DNA of 64,000 nt from Glycomyces harbinensis (GTDB taxonomy: Bacteria; Actinomycetota; Actinomycetes; Mycobacteriales; Micromonosporaceae). The DNA is taken from the NCBI RefSeq assembly GCF_900101745.1, contig NZ_FNAD01000008.1:1-64000 (forward strand), written 5' to 3'. The position numbers and the translations under genes are program-made. Each line of letters starts with the position of its first letter. Positions within the stretch are counted from its first letter, which is position 1. The notes below the pieces were generated by a model. The model ran no database searches and had not been told where the DNA came from. It was given only the letters and a program-made list of their open reading frames with translations. Below are positions 20,311 to 30,598 of this stretch, one piece after another.

Positions 20311-23166
20311 GTGTTCCCGGGGGGTCGTTTGCTAGTTCTGCTTGCCTGCTATGCCATCGCGGCGATCGGTGCGCCCGCCCTCGTCCGGTGGTGGGGCCCC
20401 AAGGCCATGTACGCCGTCGCCGCCGTTCCCGCGGCGACGTTCGTGTGGGCCCTGACCCGAACGGGCGCAATGCGGTCGGGCGGCGCGGTCGCCGAGACCC
20501 ACCCGTGGGTGCCCGAACTCGGACTCGAGATCTCGCTGCGGATGAGCACCTTCCCGTGGGTCATGGTGCTCCTCGTCAGCGGCGTCGGCGCGCTCGTGCT
20601 CGCCTACAGTGCCCACTACTTCTCGTCCGGCGAGGCCGGACTCGGGCGCTTCGCCGCGGTCTTCACCGCGTTCGCCGGCGCCATGTTCGGGCTGGTCGTC
20701 GCCGACGACCTGCTCCTGCTCTACGTCTTCTGGGAGCTGACCTCGGTCTTCTCCTACCTCCTCATCGGACACGACCCGGCGAGGAGCGCGAGCCGCTGGG
20801 CCGCGATGCAGGCGCTGCTGGTCACCACGCTCGGCGGCCTGGCGATGCTCACGGGCTTCATCATGCTCGGCCAGCACGCGGGCACCTACCGGCTCTCGGA
20901 GGTCGTCGGCCACCTGCCCGGCGGCGCGTACCTCGTGATCGCGCTGGTCCTGGTCCTCCTCGGCGCCCTGTCGAAGTCGGCGGTCTTCCCGTTCAGCTTC
21001 TGGCTGCCCAGCGCCATGGCCGCGCCGACGCCCGTCAGCGCCTACCTCCACGCCGCCGCCATGGTCAAGGCCGGCGTGTTCCTCATCGGGATGCTCACCC
21101 CCGCACTGGCCTCCGAAGCGCCGTGGCAGCAGGTGATCTGGACCTGCGGCGCCGTCACCTTCCTGTTCGGAGGATGGACGGCGCTGCGCCAGACCGACCT
21201 GAAGCTCATGCTGGCCTACGGCACGGTCTCCCAGCTCGGCATGATCAGCATCGTCCTGGGCACCGGCACGCGGACCGCCGCGCTCGCCGGGGCCGCGCTC
21301 CTGGCCGGGCACGCCATGTTCAAGGCCGCGCTGTTCCTGGTCGTCGGCATCGTGGACAAGACGACCGGCACCCGCGAGATCTACACGCTCAGCGGCCTCG
21401 GCGCCCGCAGGCCCCTGCTCGCGGCCGTCGCCGCCGTCGCGGTGGCCTCGATGATCGGCTTCCCGCCGACGCTCGGGTTCGTCGCGAAGGAGGCGATGCT
21501 CGCCGCGTTCTGGGACGGCGGGCCGTGGGGCCGGGCCATGCTCGCCTGCCTCATCGCCGGCGCCGCGCTCACCGTCGCCTATGGACTGCGGTTCCTGTGG
21601 GGCGCGTTCGCCCGCAAGGCCGACGCGCAGGAGACCGACGCCGCGCCGATCGGACCCGGGTTCATCGCCGCGCCCGTGCTGCTGGCGCTCGCCGGCCTCG
21701 GCGCCGGGCTCTTCGCACCCGGGGTCGACGAACTTCTGGCGCCGTACGCCGACGGCTTCCCGGAGGCCGGGCACGCCTACCACCTGGCCCTGTGGCACGG
21801 CCTCACCCCCGCGCTCGGCTTCTCGGCCCTCGCGCTCGCCACCGGATTCGGGCTCTTCCTGGCGCTCCACCGCACGAGCGCGTGGCGGTCGCTGAAGCTG
21901 CCGTTCAAGTCCGGGACGGTGTACAAGCAGGCCATCGGCGGGGTCGACCGCGTCGCGGTCGAACTCACCGGCCGCACCCAGCGCGGCTCGCTGCCGTTCT
22001 ACCTCGGCGTCATCCTGGTGACGCTCGTCGTGTTCGCGGGCGGGCTGCTGGTCTTCGACGGGCCGTGGCCCGTGGGCATCGAGCTGTTCGACACCCCGCT
22101 CCAGGTCGCCGCGGGCGGCATCATCGTCATCGCGGCCATCTCGGCCGCCGTCGCCAAGCGGCGCCTGACCGCGATGGTCCTCACCGGCGTCTCCGGCTAC
22201 GGCGTGGCGACGCTGTTCATCTTCCACGGCGCGCCCGACCTGGCGCTCACCCAGTTCCTGGTCGAGACGGTCACCATCGTCATGTTCGTGCTCGTGCTGC
22301 GCCGGCTGCCCGCGCGCTTCTCCGAACGCCCGTTGAAGAAGGTCCGCCGCTTCCGCGTCGCCGTCGGCATCGCGGTCGGCGTCGTCGCCTCGGGGATGGC
22401 GTACGTGGCCGTCAGCGGCAGGCAGGCCGCGCCGATCTCCGAGCTCTTCCCCGACCTGGCGGTCTCCTACGGCGGCGGCCACAACATCGTCAACGTCATC
22501 CTCGTCGACATCCGCGCCTGGGACACCATGGGCGAGATCGCGGTCCTCCTCGTCGCCGCCACCGGCGTCGCGAGCCTCATCTTCGGACGCGACCGGCTCA
22601 TGCACCGCCGCGGCGGCTCACGCCCCGCACCACCGCGGACCGGCGAGCACGTCAAGTGGCTCTACCGGCCCGAGACCGACGGCAGCCACCAGGCGATCAT
22701 CCTCCAGGTCGTCACGCGGCTGCTGTTCCACACCATCGTCCTGTTCTCGATCTACCTGCTGTTCACCGGCCACAACCACCCCGGCGGCGGCTTCGCCGGG
22801 GGCCTCGTCGCCGGGCTCGCGCTCGCCATCCGCTACCTCGCGGGCGGGCGGGCCGAACTCAACGCCGCCGCACCGGTCGACGCCGGGCGCCTCCTCGGCA
22901 CCGGCCTGCTCATCTCGGTCGGCACCGGCGCCGCGTCGATGCTGCTGGGCGGCGAGGTGCTCCAGAGCGCCATCCTCGACTTCGACCTGCCGCTGGTCGG
23001 GCACGTCCACTTCGTCACCTCCACGTTCTTCGACATCGGCGTCTACCTGATCGTGGTCGGCCTGGTCCTGGACATCCTGCGCAGCCTCGGCGCCGAGATC
23101 GACCGGCACCAGGAGTCCGGTGAGGACACCGAGACCCTGCCGCAGCTCGAGAAGGAGGCCGCATGA
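20311..23166 (+). CDS. mrpA: Mrp antiporter subunit A with fused B domain
   Basis: Largest subunit of the Mrp Na+(K+)/H+ antiporter, 951 residues and very hydrophobic. Residues 1-750 have the NuoL/MrpA pattern, with the TM5 glutamate region YVFWELTSVFSYLLIG near 140, the LSKSAVFPFSFWLPSAM lysine segment near 220 and GHAMFKAALFLVVG near 330. Residues about 785-940 form an MnhB domain (GHNHPGGGFAGGL), so subunit B is fused on, as is usual in actinobacteria. The start is GTG 20311 or TTG 20329; only the TTG has a G-rich Shine-Dalgarno. It overlaps mrpC by 4 bp and begins a six-gene coupled operon. A weak TAGGGT -10 box is seen at 20284. Confidence 0.93.
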   Translation: MFPGGRLLVLLACYAIAAIGAPALVRWWGPKAMYAVAAVPAATFVWALTRTGAMRSGGAVAETHPWVPELGLEISLRMSTFPWVMVLLVSGVGALVLAYSAHYFSSGEAGLGRFAAVFTAFAGAMFGLVVADDLLLLYVFWELTSVFSYLLIGHDPARSASRWAAMQALLVTTLGGLAMLTGFIMLGQHAGTYRLSEVVGHLPGGAYLVIALVLVLLGALSKSAVFPFSFWLPSAMAAPTPVSAYLHAAAMVKAGVFLIGMLTPALASEAPWQQVIWTCGAVTFLFGGWTALRQTDLKLMLAYGTVSQLGMISIVLGTGTRTAALAGAALLAGHAMFKAALFLVVGIVDKTTGTREIYTLSGLGARRPLLAAVAAVAVASMIGFPPTLGFVAKEAMLAAFWDGGPWGRAMLACLIAGAALTVAYGLRFLWGAFARKADAQETDAAPIGPGFIAAPVLLALAGLGAGLFAPGVDELLAPYADGFPEAGHAYHLALWHGLTPALGFSALALATGFGLFLALHRTSAWRSLKLPFKSGTVYKQAIGGVDRVAVELTGRTQRGSLPFYLGVILVTLVVFAGGLLVFDGPWPVGIELFDTPLQVAAGGIIVIAAISAAVAKRRLTAMVLTGVSGYGVATLFIFHGAPDLALTQFLVETVTIVMFVLVLRRLPARFSERPLKKVRRFRVAVGIAVGVVASGMAYVAVSGRQAAPISELFPDLAVSYGGGHNIVNVILVDIRAWDTMGEIAVLLVAATGVASLIFGRDRLMHRRGGSRPAPPRTGEHVKWLYRPETDGSHQAIILQVVTRLLFHTIVLFSIYLLFTGHNHPGGGFAGGLVAGLALAIRYLAGGRAELNAAAPVDAGRLLGTGLLISVGTGAASMLLGGEVLQSAILDFDLPLVGHVHFVTSTFFDIGVYLIVVGLVLDILRSLGAEIDRHQESGEDTETLPQLEKEAA

Positions 23167-23606
23167 CCCCGAACCTGGTCTACGTGATCGTGATCGGCGT
23201 GCTGTTCGGCGCCGGGGTGTCGCTGCTGTTGGAGCGCACGCTCACCCGCATCCTCATCGGCGTGGTCCTCATCGGCAACGGCGTCAACGTGCTCATCCTC
23301 ATGGGCGGCGCGTTCGGGACGCCGCCGATCGTCGGCGACGAGCCGGTCGAGGGCATGAGCGACCCGCTGCCGCAGGCGATGATCCTGACCGCCATCGTGA
23401 TCACGCTCGGCATCACCGCGTTCCTCCTGGCCCTGGCCTACCGCAGCTGGCAGCTCCTGGGCCACGACGAGGTGCAGGACGACGCCGAGGACACCCGCAT
23501 CATCGAACTCGCCGACCGCGACGAGGTGCCGCACGCCGACGAGGACGACGACGACCTCCCGAACCCGGTCTACGACTGCGCGCCGGGGAGGGAGGCCGTC
23601 CGATGA
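23163..23606 (+). CDS. mrpC: Mrp antiporter subunit C
   Basis: NuoK-like small membrane subunit of 147 residues. Three helices lie within residues 1-105, with GVSLLLERTLTRILIGVVLIGNGVNVLIL as the core and a DPLPQAMILTAIVITLGITAFLLAL last helix typical of MnhC. The acidic C-terminal tail of about 40 residues is longer than in many homologues. ATGA overlaps connect it to mrpA and mrpD. Confidence 0.92.
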   Translation: MTPNLVYVIVIGVLFGAGVSLLLERTLTRILIGVVLIGNGVNVLILMGGAFGTPPIVGDEPVEGMSDPLPQAMILTAIVITLGITAFLLALAYRSWQLLGHDEVQDDAEDTRIIELADRDEVPHADEDDDDLPNPVYDCAPGREAVR

Positions 23607-25129
23607 CCTCACTCGTCCCGCTCCCGGTCGTCATCCCGCTGCTCGGCGCCGCGCTGACCCTGATGCTGGCCCGGCGCCCGGTCGCCCAGCGCGCGATCAG
23701 CCTCACCGCGCTCACGGCCACGCTCGCCGTCTCCTCGGTCCTGCTCGTGCTCACCGTGACCGACGGCCCGCAGGTCGTCGCGGTCGGCGGCTGGGCGCCG
23801 CCGCTGGGGATCGTCCTCATCGCCGACAAGCTCGCCGCGCTCATGCTCGTGGTCTCGACCGCGGTGACGCTGTGCGTCCTGGTCTACTCGATCGGACAGG
23901 GCGCGGCCGACGGCGACGAGGAGACGCCGCTGTCGATCTACCACCCGACGTACCTGGCGCTGACCGCCGGCGTCACCAACGCGTTCCTGTCGGGCGACCT
24001 GTTCAACCTCTACGTCGGCTTCGAAGTGCTCCTGGTGGCGAGCTACGTGCTGCTGACCTTGGGCAGCACCGAGAACCGCATCCGGGCCGGGACCACGTAC
24101 GTCGTGGTGAGCCTCCTGTCCTCGGTGATCTTCCTCAGCGCCCTCGGCCTCGTGTACGCCGCGACCGGGACGCTGAACATGGCCCAGCTCGCGGGGCGCT
24201 TCGACGAGCTGCCGGACAACCTGCGGCTGCTGCTGCAGGGGATGCTGCTGCTGGCCTTCGGGATCAAGGCCGCGGTGTTCCCGCTCGGCGCGTGGCTGCC
24301 CGACAGCTACCCGACCGCGCCCGCGCCCGTCACCGCCGTCTTCGCGGGCCTGCTCACGAAGGTCGGCATCTACGCGGTCATCCGCACCGAGACGCTCCTG
24401 TTCCCCGACGGGCGCATAGCCGACGTGCTGCTGGTGATCTCGCTGCTGACGATGGTCGTCGGCATCCTCGGCGCGGTCGCGCAGTCGGACATCAAGCGGC
24501 TCCTGTCGTTCACGCTCATCAGCCACATCGGGTACATGCTGTTCGGGGTGGCGCTCGCGACCGAGGCCGGACTGTCGGGGGCGATCTTCTACATCGCGCA
24601 CCACATCACGATCCAGACGACGCTGTTCCTCGCCGCGGGCCTCATCGAGCGCCGTGGCGGCACGACCGCGCTCGACCGGCTCGGCGGACTGGGGAAGATC
24701 GCGCCGGTGCTGTCGATCCTGTTCTTCATCCCGGCGCTCAACCTCGCGGGCATCCCGCCGTTCTCCGGGTTCCTCGGGAAGCTCGGGCTGCTCCAGGCGG
24801 GGGTGGACGAGTCCGGGCCGCTGGTCTGGGCCGTCGTCGCCGGCGGCGTCGTCACGAGCCTGCTGACGCTGTACGCGATCGGGCGGGTCTGGAACCTCGC
24901 GTTCTGGCGCAGGCCGCACCCCCAGATGCCGACGGCCGAGGACGAGGCCGACGGGTCGACGGTGCTGCTGCCGCGGCTCATGATCGCCCCCACGTTCGCG
25001 CTGGTGGCGTTCAGCGTCGCGCTGACCGTCGTGGCCGGGCCGCTGTTCGGCATCACCTCGGACGCGGCCGCCGACCTGCTCTCCCGCACGCCCTACATCG
25101 AAGCGGTCTTCCCGGACGGTGCGCCATGA
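23603..25129 (+). CDS. mrpD: Mrp antiporter subunit D
   Basis: NuoM/NuoN-like proton-translocating subunit of 508 residues with about 14 helices. Diagnostic segments are LFNLYVGFEVLLVASYVLLTLGS near 133-155 (TM5 glutamate), FGIKAAVFPLGAWLPDSYPTAPAPVTAVFAGLLTKVG near 220-256 and SHIGYMLFGV near 308. The ATG lies in an ATGA overlap with mrpC and the stop overlaps mrpE, so subunits are made in fixed proportion. Confidence 0.93.
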   Translation: MTSLVPLPVVIPLLGAALTLMLARRPVAQRAISLTALTATLAVSSVLLVLTVTDGPQVVAVGGWAPPLGIVLIADKLAALMLVVSTAVTLCVLVYSIGQGAADGDEETPLSIYHPTYLALTAGVTNAFLSGDLFNLYVGFEVLLVASYVLLTLGSTENRIRAGTTYVVVSLLSSVIFLSALGLVYAATGTLNMAQLAGRFDELPDNLRLLLQGMLLLAFGIKAAVFPLGAWLPDSYPTAPAPVTAVFAGLLTKVGIYAVIRTETLLFPDGRIADVLLVISLLTMVVGILGAVAQSDIKRLLSFTLISHIGYMLFGVALATEAGLSGAIFYIAHHITIQTTLFLAAGLIERRGGTTALDRLGGLGKIAPVLSILFFIPALNLAGIPPFSGFLGKLGLLQAGVDESGPLVWAVVAGGVVTSLLTLYAIGRVWNLAFWRRPHPQMPTAEDEADGSTVLLPRLMIAPTFALVAFSVALTVVAGPLFGITSDAAADLLSRTPYIEAVFPDGAP

Positions 25130-25683
25130 GCCCTCTGACCAAGCGCGAGCGGATCCGCAGCCGGATCACCGCCGTCATCGGCCTCGTCCTGGTGTGGAAC
25201 CTCCTGTGGGGCGAGTTCACCTGGATGAACACGATCTCCGGCGCCGTCATCGCGGTCGCGATCCTGCTGGTGTTCCCGCTGCCGCCGGTCAAGTTCGGCG
25301 GCCGATTGCGGCCGCTGCACGTGATCGGGTTCTTCGCGCGGTTCTTCTACGACCTCGTGGTGGCGAGCTTCCAGGTGGCGTTCCTGGCGTTTCGCCCCGG
25401 CGAGCCCAAGAGCGCGATCGTCGCCGTGGAGCTGCGGGTCAAGTCCGACCTGAACATGACGCTGGTCGCCGAGGCGGTCTCGCTCGTGCCCGGCAGCCTC
25501 ATCGCCGAGGCCGACCAGCAGACCGGGACGCTGTACATCCACATGCTCGGGGTCAGGGACGCCGAGCATCTCGAGCGGCTCCGCGCCGAGGTCCTGCACG
25601 TCGAGGCGCGGCTGATCCGGGCGATCGGCTCGGACGAGGAGCTGCGCCGAGTGAACGCCCCCCGAGAGGAGCCCGCGACATGA
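25126..25683 (+). CDS. mrpE: Mrp antiporter subunit E
   Basis: MnhE-family subunit of 185 residues. Two or three hydrophobic helices fill residues 12-85 (including LVLVWNLLWGEFTW and the FFYDLVVASFQVA segment). A soluble domain follows with VELRVKSDLNMTLVAEAVSLVPGSL, typical of MnhE. It is needed for antiporter assembly in studied systems. It overlaps mrpD and mrpF by 4 bp. Confidence 0.92.
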   Translation: MSPLTKRERIRSRITAVIGLVLVWNLLWGEFTWMNTISGAVIAVAILLVFPLPPVKFGGRLRPLHVIGFFARFFYDLVVASFQVAFLAFRPGEPKSAIVAVELRVKSDLNMTLVAEAVSLVPGSLIAEADQQTGTLYIHMLGVRDAEHLERLRAEVLHVEARLIRAIGSDEELRRVNAPREEPAT

Positions 25684-25940
25684 CCGTCGCCGCAGTCGCC
25701 GTCGCCGCCCTGCTCATCGCCGCGTGCGCGATGGCCCTGGTCAGGATCATCCGCGGACCGACCACACTGGACCGGATCGTCGCCACGGACGTGCTCCTGG
25801 CGATCACCGCCACCGCGATCATCGCCGAGGCGGCGTTCACCCGCGACCCGACCGCGCTGCCGGTCGTCGTGGTGGTCTCGCTCCTGGGCATCACCGGCTC
25901 GGTCGGCGTGGCCCGCTTCGTCACCAGGGAGAAGCCGTGA
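25680..25940 (+). CDS. mrpF: Mrp antiporter subunit F
   Basis: Small MnhF-family membrane subunit of 86 residues with three helices. The RIIRGPTTLDRIVATD motif near residues 23-38 is diagnostic. The family has been linked to bile-salt and Na+ efflux. ATGA and GTGA overlaps tie it to mrpE and mrpG. Confidence 0.92.
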   Translation: MTVAAVAVAALLIAACAMALVRIIRGPTTLDRIVATDVLLAITATAIIAEAAFTRDPTALPVVVVVSLLGITGSVGVARFVTREKP

Positions 25941-26335
25941 CGCTCCAAGGGGTCCTCGACGCGATCGCCGCCGTCTGCATGGTCACCGGGGCGCTGCTCA
26001 GTCTGGCCGCGGGCGTGGCGCTGCTGCGGTTCCCGGACCTGCTGAGCCGCATGCACGCCGCCGCGAAGCCGCAGGTGCTCGGCCTGCTGCTGGTGCTCAC
26101 GGGCTGCGCGATCCGCATCGCGACGGTCGTCGACGTGACCACCATGGTGCTCATCGCGTTCTTCCAGCTCGCGACCGCTCCGGTCGCGGCGCACATGGTC
26201 GGCCGCGCGGCCTACCGCGACGGCCAGACCCGGACCGACCTCCTCATCACTGACGAGCTCGCGCCGCAGATGGACCGGTTCAGCGAGCGGCCGGCCGAGC
26301 GCAACGGCCGGGCCTCGGTCGATCCGCCGGCGTAG
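25937..26335 (+). CDS. mrpG: Mrp antiporter subunit G
   Basis: MnhG-family subunit of 132 residues, last in the operon. Three helices occupy residues 8-95, with LLRFPDLLSRMHAAAKPQVLG as the family signature. The polar C-terminal tail of about 35 residues is not conserved in the family as far as I recall. The GTG overlaps mrpF by 4 bp. A convergent tetR gene ends 38 bp downstream; no strong terminator is seen between them. Confidence 0.92.
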   Translation: MTLQGVLDAIAAVCMVTGALLSLAAGVALLRFPDLLSRMHAAAKPQVLGLLLVLTGCAIRIATVVDVTTMVLIAFFQLATAPVAAHMVGRAAYRDGQTRTDLLITDELAPQMDRFSERPAERNGRASVDPPA

Positions 26336-27839: not shown

Positions 27840-28616
27840 ATGCCCGACGGGAACCTGCTGCTCGGATTCGCGGCCGGACTGGCGATCTCGGTCGTCACCA
27901 CCCCGGCCGGCGTCTCGGGGGCGGTGTTCCTCCTGCCGGTCCAACTCAGCGTCCTGCACGTGCCCAACCCCGCGGTCACCCCGACCAACCTGCTGTACAA
28001 CGTGGTCGCCGGTCCCGGCGCCCTCGCCCGGTACGCCCGCGGCGGCGCGCTCCGCTCACCGCTGGCCGGCCTCCTCGTCCTGGGCACGTTGCCCGGCGTC
28101 CTGATCGGCGCGTCCGTGCGCGTCCATCTCGTCGCCGACGCCGACGTGTTCCGGCTGTGCGCCGCCGTCGTCCTCGCGCCGCTCGGCGTCTGGCTGCTGC
28201 TGCCGCGCCGCACCCGTACGGCCACTCGCAAGGGGCTGGGCCGCAAGGCGGTCCTGGGGCTGGCGTTCGCGGCCGGGTGCGTCGGCGGCGTCTACGGCAT
28301 CGGCGGCGGCTCGCTGCTGAGCCCGCTCCTGGTCGGCGCGGGGCTGTCCGTCGCGGTCGTCGCTCCGGCGGCCCTGCTGTCGACCTTCGCCACCTCGATC
28401 GCCGGATGCCTCGCCTTCGCGGCCTTGAGCTTCACGGCCCCCGGCGACGTGGCGCCCGACTGGGCCCTCGGCATCGCCTGCGGCGTCGGCGGACTCATCG
28501 GCGGCTATCTCGGCGCCGCGCTCCAGCCCCGGCTTCCCGAGCGGCTCCTCCGAAGCCTCCTCGGCGCGCTCGCCGTCGCCGTGGCCGGCGTCTACGCCGT
28601 CCAAGTCGCGGTCTGA
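27840..28616 (+). CDS. TauE/SafE-family membrane exporter
   Basis: A 258-residue TauE/SafE permease with about eight helices. The two repeated halves carry TPAGVSGAVFLLPVQL and GGVYGIGGGSLLSPLLVGAG, the paired Gly-rich motifs of the family. Members export or import sulfite, sulfoacetate or related anions, and some are poorly characterised metal or sulfur exporters. It ends 13 bp from the convergent ArsR-type regulator gene. The close association with an arsR/flavoprotein pair suggests a joint role, but this is context only. Confidence 0.85.
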   Translation: MPDGNLLLGFAAGLAISVVTTPAGVSGAVFLLPVQLSVLHVPNPAVTPTNLLYNVVAGPGALARYARGGALRSPLAGLLVLGTLPGVLIGASVRVHLVADADVFRLCAAVVLAPLGVWLLLPRRTRTATRKGLGRKAVLGLAFAAGCVGGVYGIGGGSLLSPLLVGAGLSVAVVAPAALLSTFATSIAGCLAFAALSFTAPGDVAPDWALGIACGVGGLIGGYLGAALQPRLPERLLRSLLGALAVAVAGVYAVQVAV

Positions 28617-28629
28617 GCGCCCGCGAGCC

Positions 28630-28992
28630 CTAGCAGCAGCCGTTGTGCTCGACGGGGTTCGAGAGTCCGGCGAGGGCGCGCATCGGTGCGGAGAAGGCGT
28701 CGCAGCACAGGGAGTAGACGTTGCTGCGGCCCTTGGGGGTCACCGAGACGAGGCCGAGTTCGCGCAGCGGCGCGAGATGGTGGGAGACGAGGGTCTGCGC
28801 GAGGCCGGTGGCCTCGGTCAGCTCGCGGACCGTGCGGGAGTGCTCCGACAGCAGCAGCACGATCGCGAGCCGGTTCTCGTCGGCCAGGGCCTTGAACTGC
28901 GGCGCGAGGCCCTTGGCGTGCTCGATCACCGATGCGTCGGAGTGCTCGGCGGCGCTCACGTCGGTCAGGGTGAGTTCGATCGTGCGGCTCAT
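28630..28992 (-). CDS. ArsR-family metalloregulator with paired cysteines
   Basis: ArsR/SmtB winged-helix repressor of 120 residues. The DNA-binding region includes ADENRLAIVLLLSEHSRTVRELTEATGLAQTLVSHHLAPL. It lacks the classical CVC pair in the recognition helix. Instead, Cys96-Cys97 follow the wing and the protein ends in Cys119-Cys120. Such C-terminal thiols are a plausible metalloid-binding site of the kind that evolved several times in this family. It is divergent from a Cys-tailed flavoprotein gene, with inverted repeats between them. It likely represses that gene and itself until As(III), Sb(III) or another thiophile binds. Confidence 0.85.
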   Translation of the reverse strand: MSRTIELTLTDVSAAEHSDASVIEHAKGLAPQFKALADENRLAIVLLLSEHSRTVRELTEATGLAQTLVSHHLAPLRELGLVSVTPKGRSNVYSLCCDAFSAPMRALAGLSNPVEHNGCC

Positions 28993-29017
28993 GGGTCAAG
29001 TAAACCACGGAACTTGC

Positions 29018-29056
29018 TATCAACAGTAAATACTGATATTACTTAGTTCAGTTGAT
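29018..29056. promoter_or_regulatory. ArsR operator candidates
   Basis: An AT-rich island between the divergent genes contains nested inverted repeats: TATCA/TGATA (29018-29038), CAGTA/TACTG (29024-29035) and ATCAAC/GTTGAT (29019-29024 with 29051-29056). ATCAA/TTGAT half-sites are common in ArsR operators. The position between the regulator and its probable target fits a shared operator. Confidence 0.5.
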
Positions 29057-29098
29057 GTGATCGCGAACGGCGCGACCCGCTGACAACGAAGGACCGAC

Positions 29099-30598
29099 AT
29101 GTCGAACCTCATCAGCCGCCCGGCGCGGACCGTGGCCGTCATCGGCGCGGGCCCGGTCGGCCTGGCCGCCGCCGCCCACCTGGTCGAGCGCGGCCTCACC
29201 CCGATCGTCCTCGAGACCGGCGCCGGACCGGCCGCGGCGATCCGCGAGTGGGGCCACGTGCGCCTGTTCTCCCCATGGCGCTTCGACATCGACAGCGCCG
29301 CAAGGCGACTGCTCGAAGCCCAGGACTGGGTCGCACCCGACCCCGACGGCCTCCCCACCGGTGACGAACTCATCGACGCCTACCTCGCGCCGCTCGCGAA
29401 GACACCCCGGATCGCCCCGCACCTCCGCTACGGCACCCGCGTCACCGCGGTCGCGCGCCTGGGCGTGGACAAGACCCGCACCGTCGACCGCGAGGGCCGC
29501 CCGTACCTGGTGCGGACGCAGAACACGGCGGGCGCGTGGGAAGACGTCATCGTGGACGCGGTCATCGACGCCTCCGGGACCTGGGGACAGCGCAACCCTC
29601 TAGGGGCCCACGGCCTCGCCGCCCCCGGTGAAGACCACGCGGCCGCTTGGGCGGCCGGCCCGCTCCCGGACGTCCTCGGATCGGCTCGCGACCGCTTCGC
29701 GGGCAAGCGGACTCTCGTGGTCGGCATGGGCCACTCGGCGGCGAACACGCTGCTGAACCTGGCGGCGTTGAAGGAGGCCGAGCCGTCGACGACGGTGGTC
29801 TGGGCGATCCGCGGCGACGACCCGGCGCGACTGTACGGGGGCGGCTCGGCCGACGCGCTGCCCGCGCGCGGCACCATCGGCACCCGCCTGCGGGAGCTGG
29901 TCGAGACGGGTGCGATCGAACTCGTCACCGGGTTCACGATCGACCGCTTCGAGGAGCGGGGCGACGGCGCGGTGGCGGTGGTCGGGAACATCGGCGGTGT
30001 CGAGCAGGTCATCGAGACCGACCACGTCGCCGCCGCGACCGGATTCCGGCCCGACCTGGAGATGCTGCGCGAAGTCCGCCTCGAGATCGACAGCACGGTG
30101 GAGGCCCCGGCGAAGCTCGCGCCGCTCATCGACCCGAACTTCCACTCCTGCGGCACCGTGCCCCCGCACGGCGAAGCCGATCTCGCCCAACCCGACGAGG
30201 GCTTCTACCTCGTCGGCATGAAGTCCTACGGCCGAGCGCCGACGTTCCTGCTCGCCACCGGATACGAGCAGGTCCGGTCCATCGCCGCCGCGCTCGCGGG
30301 CGACCGGGAGGCCGCCGACAAGGTCGAACTCGACCTGCCCGAGACGGGCGTCTGCTCCTCGTCGCGGTCGCTGGAGGCGACCAGCATCGCCGACGCCGCC
30401 GAAGGCTCCGGCTGCTGCGGTTCGACCGCGAGCGCCGACTCCGGCTGCGGGACGAGCGCCGATTCGGGTTGCGGGACCGCGCGGCCCGAGCCGGTGGCGA
30501 TCGGCTCGCGCGGACTCGCCACCGGTGTCCTGCACGGATACTCCGGCGAGCGGACCGAACTGCCGCAGCTCGAGCAGACCGGCGGCTGCTGCGGCTAG
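29099..30598 (+). CDS. ArsO-like FAD/NAD(P)-binding monooxygenase with Cys-rich tail
   Basis: Flavoprotein of 499 residues. An FAD Rossmann motif GAGPVGLAAAAHLVERG lies near residues 16-32, and a second dinucleotide motif, VVGMGHSAANTLL, near 210. The fold resembles flavin monooxygenases and the ArsO proteins found in actinomycete ars loci. From about residue 436 to the end the chain becomes a low-complexity tail with Cys439-Cys440, Cys450, Cys458 and a terminal GGCCG. These thiols could bind a metalloid or store persulfide. The divergent ArsR also ends in Cys-Cys. The substrate is unproven; an arsenic or sulfur compound is likely from context. Confidence 0.75.
   Translation: MSNLISRPARTVAVIGAGPVGLAAAAHLVERGLTPIVLETGAGPAAAIREWGHVRLFSPWRFDIDSAARRLLEAQDWVAPDPDGLPTGDELIDAYLAPLAKTPRIAPHLRYGTRVTAVARLGVDKTRTVDREGRPYLVRTQNTAGAWEDVIVDAVIDASGTWGQRNPLGAHGLAAPGEDHAAAWAAGPLPDVLGSARDRFAGKRTLVVGMGHSAANTLLNLAALKEAEPSTTVVWAIRGDDPARLYGGGSADALPARGTIGTRLRELVETGAIELVTGFTIDRFEERGDGAVAVVGNIGGVEQVIETDHVAAATGFRPDLEMLREVRLEIDSTVEAPAKLAPLIDPNFHSCGTVPPHGEADLAQPDEGFYLVGMKSYGRAPTFLLATGYEQVRSIAAALAGDREAADKVELDLPETGVCSSSRSLEATSIADAAEGSGCCGSTASADSGCGTSADSGCGTARPEPVAIGSRGLATGVLHGYSGERTELPQLEQTGGCCG

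Follow-up and report, generated by a model that had tools for sequence, protein, structure and literature searches.

An available excerpt of one account of ArsR repressors lists their As(III) sites as Cys32/34/37, Cys95/96/102, Cys15/16/55 and Cys41/80/82, and states that As(III) needs three cysteines and methylarsenite two, the two-cysteine SpArsR answering to methylarsenite only (PMC11868830). In a second excerpt, RpArsR2 ranks first of nine in its affinity for As(III) (PMC13236881). On the side of the enzymes, the portions of text available present ArsV as a flavin monooxygenase that oxidises methylarsenite, antimonite being added in one title (PMC11719878, PMC9144182, PMC10080717). The locus considered here lies in a window of 64,000 nucleotides (nt) of DNA from Glycomyces, a soil actinobacterium (the whole stretch that was analysed; contig label G000:C12), and consists of an arsR gene and a divergent gene for a flavoprotein that binds flavin adenine dinucleotide (FAD) and nicotinamide adenine dinucleotide (phosphate) (NAD(P)), with a tauE gene convergent with arsR. 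Together, arsR and the flavoprotein gene make up a single self-contained, conserved unit, and there is little doubt that this unit is linked to arsenicals. It is a coherent arsenical unit of a known general kind, in which two features stand out: where the thiol pair of the ArsR is placed, and the cysteine tail of the flavoenzyme. Translation confirmed all three genes, together with the cysteine pattern described for them in an initial annotation of this DNA, and the features of the locus are as follows.

27840-28616, forward strand: TauE/SafE-family permease of 258 amino acids, convergent with arsR (PF01925, 111.6 bits, cut-off 32.6)
28630-28992, reverse strand: CC-type ArsR/SmtB repressor of 120 amino acids (NF033788, 71.3 bits, cut-off 55; PF01022, 55.3 bits, cut-off 22)
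28993-29098, no strand: divergent promoter region common to arsR and the flavoprotein gene (gap of 106-150 nt in all 23 genus units; 20 spacers aligned)
29014-29042, forward strand: promoter-like TTGCTA-N17-TATTAC leading into the flavoprotein gene, read by eye, with the operator core inside its spacer
29018-29041, forward strand: operator footprint TATCAACAG-N6-CTGATATTA, with 0 mismatches and the palindromic core CAGTAAATACTG at 29024-29035
29099-30598, forward strand: FAD/NAD(P)-binding flavoprotein of 499 amino acids, with Cys351 in the core and a cysteine-rich tail from about residue 414

A survey of 22 Glycomyces genomes, conducted at a threshold of at least 70% identity for the flavoprotein, identified 23 copies of the flavoprotein in 20 genomes and likewise 23 copies of the close ArsR homologue, and a divergent CC-type ArsR gene adjoins every one of the 23 flavoprotein genes. 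Neither protein was found at the survey thresholds in the genomes G003 and G020. The same divergent pair is present in G025, G033 and G034, outside the 23 genus units. Within the order, CC-ArsR matches are present in 29 of 298 genomes, and a divergent flavoprotein gene accompanies the ArsR at 13 of 14 loci from other families, these loci being the fetched part of 20 CC-ArsR matches (G025 apart). The flavoprotein is thus paired at 39 of the 40 CC-type ArsR loci examined in all, tblastn having been used where gene calls missed the flavoprotein (L065, L066, L067) or, in some other rows, one of the genes. Two loci with matches of 34% and 32% identity and no acr3/arsC match nearby (L078 and L079) were treated as lying outside the flavoprotein family.

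The DNA between the two genes is also conserved. A block of about 70 nt is common to the 20 intergenic spacers aligned (20 of the 23 genus rows), and within the 22 genomes the motif TATCAACAG-N6-CTGRTATTA, at up to two mismatches, is present in 23/23 genus units and at no other place; at three mismatches, the operator motif was found at four further places and a reversed control pattern at five. There is no second operator site in the window, and a motif search of the window identified none before tauE. Outside the genus, CAG-N6-CTG is present in 13 of 16 pair spacers and two others are one letter off. A consensus promoter scan called nothing at TTGCTA-N17-TATTAC, which is promoter-like by eye only. 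Judged by the operator motif, the ArsR would regulate only its own divergent pair, and TauE, acr3 and arsC would fall outside its direct control.

The link to arsenicals comes from the genes found nearby. Within 6 kb of the genus unit, acr3 is present in 15 of 23 cases and arsC in 18; for each of these 18, whichever gene is closer lies no more than 1.8 kb away. Beyond the genus, ArsC or ACR3 was found at 12 of 14 loci holding a flavoprotein of roughly 50% identity or above (not at L074 and L075), and an ArsC or ACR3 match at 12 of the 14 fetched CC-ArsR loci of other families. On plasmids of Actinomycetota and Pseudomonadota, a sample of 21 annotated loci, hand-picked from 138 and 148 matching records and so not random, with the unannotated locus L089 left out, holds an ArsR/SmtB gene in 20 cases and a PadR gene instead in one Roseomonas locus; a gene annotated as ars or as arsenate reductase is present in 14/21, and a gene of the major facilitator superfamily (MFS) lies directly downstream of the flavoprotein gene in 13/21. 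This MFS protein is annotated as ArsK on three plasmids (one of Rhizobium, two of Ensifer). Five MFS proteins were scanned, two of them encoded in ars clusters that contain the flavoprotein gene and three encoded beside that gene, either on a plasmid or in another family; they resemble ArsK at 144-220 bits, below the cut-off of 400. ArsN1-like acetyltransferases near flavoprotein units (the one scanned gave 128.5 bits, below the cut-off of 170), ArsR-GNAT fusions divergent from the flavoprotein on plasmids of Rhodococcus pyridinivorans and Pseudonocardia alni, ArsJ in a Neotabrizicola flavoprotein locus, and a CC-type ArsR gene that overlaps an ArsP_1 permease gene by 4 nt (L131:4703-6494, genome G316) together provide an organoarsenical context that supports oxidation of trivalent arsenicals. 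At this last locus, the permease gene is followed by one for a 172-amino-acid protein that contains a CC motif and matches no Pfam family, and no flavoprotein match was found in the 12 kb stretch. In the window genome, arsR-acr3-arsC and a second arsC lie on contig C27 (89611-92356), so that the unit in the window either became detached from these genes or was never joined to them; the statement of the initial annotation that standard arsC and arsB are absent therefore applies within the window and fails for the genome. Its proposal of a thiophile shared by the two proteins, with an arsenical link, is borne out by an invariant divergent pair that lies mostly in or beside acr3/arsC clusters and by cysteines that are kept in relatives.

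The ArsR is very likely the thiol-based repressor of this unit. It has four cysteines, at residues 96, 97, 119 and 120, and none before residue 96, and thus lacks the classical CVC and ends in Cys-Cys as initially described. Cys96-97 is invariant in the 40 CC-type ArsRs (the window ArsR included) and falls just past the wing strand in an alignment of 14 ArsRs, and the C-terminal cysteines number two in 29 of the 40, one in six and none in five. In other ArsRs, placed on the columns of the window protein, CVC-type cysteines fall at 54 and 56, CgArsR-like proteins also have cysteines at 12-13, and AfArsR-like proteins have a CC at 111-112. A Type 1 As(III) site (R773, CVCDL) is absent, the window ArsR reading TVREL with T54 and R56 at the cysteine columns, and a Type 3 site (CgArsR), which combines an N-terminal CC with a cysteine in the DNA-binding domain, is likewise absent, there being no cysteine in the first 95 residues. 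The Type 2 protein AfArsR and the methylarsenite-selective SpArsR resemble the window ArsR in having adjacent cysteines in the C-terminal half and no CVC, and an excerpt has SpArsR binding methylarsenite with two cysteines (PMC11868830). Nevertheless, their CC ends the last helix and that of four AfArsR-like ArsRs aligns with S111-N112, 15 positions beyond Cys96-97; direct comparison with AfArsR (6j05) gave a weak match (E-value 0.11), which stops where Cys97 is set against chain residue 81. ArArsR of Arsenicibacter (Cys41, Cys80, Cys82) has cysteines in its C-terminal beta sheet within a few residues of Cys96-97, a position judged by counting only, whereas according to the same excerpt it needs Cys41 in its N-terminal half (PMC11868830), for which the window ArsR has no counterpart. 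RpArsR1 and RpArsR2 of Rhodopseudomonas (Cys91-92, Cys99, Cys109-110) are similar by description in having a CC and a second CC near the C-terminus, and differ, so far as the excerpt describes them, by the additional Cys99 (PMC13236881). The placement of Cys96-97 therefore appears to lie off those As(III) sites that could be compared, the nearest by count being Cys80/82 of ArArsR, and a small keyword search of the open literature found no published description of it. Sensors of other ligands also fit poorly. In BigR-type persulfide sensing, a cysteine in helix 2 is paired with one in helix 5; the persulfide sensor considered in the initial annotation is not supported for this kind, given a score of 30.1 bits against a cut-off of 155 and the lack of any N-terminal cysteine, and the Cd/Pb sensor CmtR scores 42.8 bits against 150.

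The flavoprotein, a Pyr_redox_3-type FAD/NAD(P) protein by Pfam and NCBIfam, has eight cysteines: C351 in the core, and C419, C439-C440, C450, C458 and C497-C498 in a tail in which C450 and C458 sit in two ADSGCGT units and which ends in GGCCG. A set of 74 homologues of at least 45% identity, from two phyla, was collected, of which the 73 with a TGVC-type tail start were counted; L132, which has SGVC for TGVC, was left out of the tail count, and its CC pair was seen by eye. The core HSCG cysteine is present in 73/73 and is the only core cysteine in 56, and the density of cysteines per residue is 0.0032 in the core and 0.081 in the tail, among homologues that are related and not independent. 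A CC pair is present in the tail of 72/73 (L119 lacks it), where the number of cysteines ranges from 2 to 9, and 21 of the 23 Glycomyces flavoproteins have a CC within the last six residues. The cysteine pattern of the two proteins is more than chance, and the flavoprotein tail itself is a real, conserved feature, the ADSGCG repeats being a local elaboration. Of the tail motifs stressed in the initial annotation, the CC and the richness in cysteine are thus kept while the two DSGCG repeats vary among relatives, and its check on the conservation of both tails holds for the flavoprotein and fails in part for the ArsR, whose C-terminal cysteines vary.

The same annotation had called this protein ArsO-like. 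ArsO of the arsRBOCT cluster of Streptomyces FR-008 is likewise an FAD/NAD(P)-binding protein of ars clusters, with distant similarity to the window flavoprotein. The two are nonetheless different families, the window protein scoring 43.3 bits against the ArsO cut-off of 425, and FR-008 carries both, 1.7 kb apart, its ArsO scoring 554 bits and its window-type homologue 52 bits. The arsO gene of Rhodococcus BCP1, induced less than 10-fold by arsenate, is called a homologue of FR-008 ArsO in the part of that report available (PMC6514093), and so has no bearing on the window-type family. No NCBIfam model was over its cut-off for the four flavoprotein members scanned (among the matches listed in the case of one). 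ArsV, reportedly the subject of Zhang et al. 2022 and Chen et al. 2021, is likened to the window protein by description, not by sequence. Both are flavin enzymes of arsenic resistance, ArsV being called widespread in soil bacteria in a title, and the pairing of ArsV with ArsW or ArsK efflux in the available texts (PMC10080717, PMC11719878, PMC9144182) parallels the MFS gene downstream of window-type homologues on plasmids, whereas in the window no MFS gene adjoins the flavoprotein gene, whose divergent partner encodes an unusual ArsR. The flavoprotein is perhaps the published ArsV.

It is suggested, as the somewhat more probable reading, that the unit comprises a sensor and an NAD(P)H-dependent flavoenzyme for trivalent (organo)arsenicals or antimonite. 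Without inducer, an ArsR dimer would occupy the operator and block both promoters; a trivalent metalloid would then bind the vicinal thiols Cys96-Cys97 at the junction of the wing strand and the last helix, releasing the ArsR, and the variable C-terminal cysteines could give a third ligand where present. Using NAD(P)H, FAD and oxygen, the flavoprotein would oxidise the trivalent species to a pentavalent product, its tail and Cys351 capturing the thiophile and presenting it to the flavin, and Acr3 and ArsC would deal with inorganic arsenic from another locus. Some ArsRs have lost the C-terminal cysteines and retain only Cys96-97, for which reason the likeliest inducers would be two-thiol ligands, that is methylarsenite, other trivalent organoarsenicals and perhaps antimonite; inorganic arsenite may serve as inducer where the ArsR tail cysteines exist. 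From the sequences, oxidation by the flavoprotein would be favoured over reduction with reasonable probability, and a preference for organoarsenicals or antimonite is put at even chances.

Several observations weigh against this reading. Elsewhere the flavoprotein adjoins CVC-type or AfArsR-like repressors, and therefore the enzyme does not require the CC-type sensor. Both acr3 and arsC are missing from the contig in 5/23 genus units, the window unit included. Efflux models for Cu/Zn and SaoE, too, match the ArsP_1 permease of L131, with scores of 75 and 72 bits that do not reach their cut-offs. In the window genome arsM was not over its cut-off and arsI was not found, so methylarsenite would have to come from outside; a search of the genus likewise gave nothing over cut-off for either gene, with sub-threshold arsM matches in three genomes other than that of the window. 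The AlphaFold models, each built from a 12-row alignment, were too poor to place the cysteines and were not used (mean predicted local distance difference test scores of 52 for the ArsR and 53 for the flavoprotein). The motif of flavin-containing monooxygenases (FMO), FxGxxxHxxx(Y/F/W), is found in 0/74 homologues, yet in both ArsO-type controls, an ArsO-like protein of Glycomyces and the ArsO of FR-008. This lack, the chief objection to oxidation, makes a reaction of the class-B monooxygenase type unlikely, and oxidation would need other chemistry. Finally, the top NCBIfam match is a putative bacillithiol disulfide reductase (YpdA-type; 45 bits, cut-off 340), which scores about the same as ArsO, and so reduction has to be considered.

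Given these last two points, the flavoprotein could be an NAD(P)H-dependent thiol/disulfide or metalloid reductase, the tail cysteines of which cycle between dithiol and disulfide or carry the metalloid, regenerating thiols consumed by ArsC or arsenite. Mercuric reductase and high-Mr thioredoxin reductases have C-terminal CC-type redox pairs, which the GGCCG tail end recalls, and the flavoprotein gene is often beside arsC. Nevertheless this is unlikely, given that neither CxxC nor CxxxxC occurs in the first 400 residues of any of the 74 homologues, that the HSCG cysteine is the single core cysteine in most of them, that the YpdA-type score is far under its family cut-off, and that the direct partner in 13/21 plasmid loci is an efflux-type MFS protein and not a thiol enzyme. 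It could also be argued that inorganic arsenite is the only ligand, Cys96, Cys97 and a C-terminal cysteine forming a three-coordinate As(III) site and the flavoprotein being an auxiliary arsenite-binding or -oxidising protein. At least one C-terminal cysteine is present in 35/40 ArsRs and inorganic ars genes are the commonest neighbours, yet three of the five ArsRs that have none come from Glycomyces (G012, G018, G021), where the operator and the flavoprotein are kept, and Acr3/ArsC with their own ArsR are already present elsewhere in the window genome; a ligand restricted in this way is improbable to much the same degree.

The initial annotation had included TauE as the exporter of a fixed module, in which ArsR, flavoprotein and TauE would deal jointly with a single thiophile or sulfur species by sensing, oxidation and export. 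The tauE gene lies 13 nt from arsR, and one other species (G013) has the same layout. PF01925 matches number 3-9 per genome, from which about 0.02 such genes within 500 nt would be expected by chance over 23 units, and the two observed are above this rough chance figure; TauE/SafE is moreover annotated in 3/21 plasmid loci, one of which (Pseudonocardia) has the window order. However, tauE adjoins the unit in 2/23 genus units only, the operator is lacking before it, and the Pseudonocardia protein comes from another TauE subfamily. TauE orthologues are present in 7/22 genomes and five of these seven are away from the unit, where the stretches fetched around them (about 2-7 kb on each side) contain neither the flavoprotein nor a CC-ArsR orthologue, and neither acr3 nor arsC; at one of the five (L081) an ArsR-like helix-turn-helix gene lies about 2 kb away and the contig ends 2.2 kb on the other side. 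Given the missing operator and these five exceptions, TauE is a neighbour, unproven as a part, and is probably not a fixed member of the unit. A three-gene module is accordingly very improbable, and would have been rated slightly lower still were it not for the chance figure. A keyword search of literature listings returned nothing usable on TauE in ars operons or on Glycomyces with arsenic. A second TauE/SafE subfamily (58-71% identical), which excludes the window TauE, was observed at loci with the flavoprotein and ars/ArsR genes in Glycomyces algeriensis (L045:1645-2379), Pseudonocardia alni (L099:3993-4760) and Pseudomonas nitroreducens (L096:9743-10540), and is a candidate ars-linked permease of two phyla.

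Other arrangements were seen in passing. One ars island holds three copies of the flavoprotein (L068:7476-15901), two of them long-tailed and beside ArsR-type regulators of 222 and 236 amino acids. The place of the ArsR before the flavoprotein-MFS pair is taken in Roseomonas by a regulator of the PadR type (L086:4445-4867), which has CC and CQC motifs. The fusions on the two actinobacterial plasmids (L097:5028-5915 and L099:5039-5884) join an ArsR-type helix-turn-helix to a GNAT acetyltransferase domain. The second ArsC of the window genome (L133:4612-5253, G000:C27:89611-90252) has an N-terminal extension, and its relative in L044 gave a match to NF046112, a three-helix bundle domain. Upstream of the locus, a six-gene run at 20407-26335 resembles an Mrp/Mnh multisubunit Na+/H+ antiporter operon by reading of the sequences only.

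Returning to the unit as a sensor and flavoenzyme for trivalent (organo)arsenicals or antimonite, it is possible, though doubtful, that it represents a new sensor-enzyme class. Such a class would combine an organoarsenical-selective ArsR, with a two-thiol site between wing and last helix that differs from the As(III) site types in print and optional C-terminal cysteines that tune it to arsenite, with a flavoenzyme that has neither the FMO motif nor a core CxxC/CxxxxC and acts as a thiol-relay arsenical oxidase, the flexible tail catching the trivalent arsenical and handing it to the flavin. Mercuric reductase would offer a parallel in its C-terminal CC, with the difference that the reaction here would run towards oxidation. 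If the proposed reading is correct, the window ArsR would extend the short list of thiol sites by which ArsR proteins are known to sense arsenicals, and the natural variants with none, one or two C-terminal cysteines would make the rule of two thiols for methylarsenite and three for arsenite directly testable. The flavoprotein would represent a family that occurs at ars loci of two phyla or more and is unnamed in NCBIfam for the four members scanned, and its conserved core cysteine and cysteine-rich tail would hint at a way for a flavoenzyme to deal with a metalloid that reacts with thiols and yet escape poisoning.

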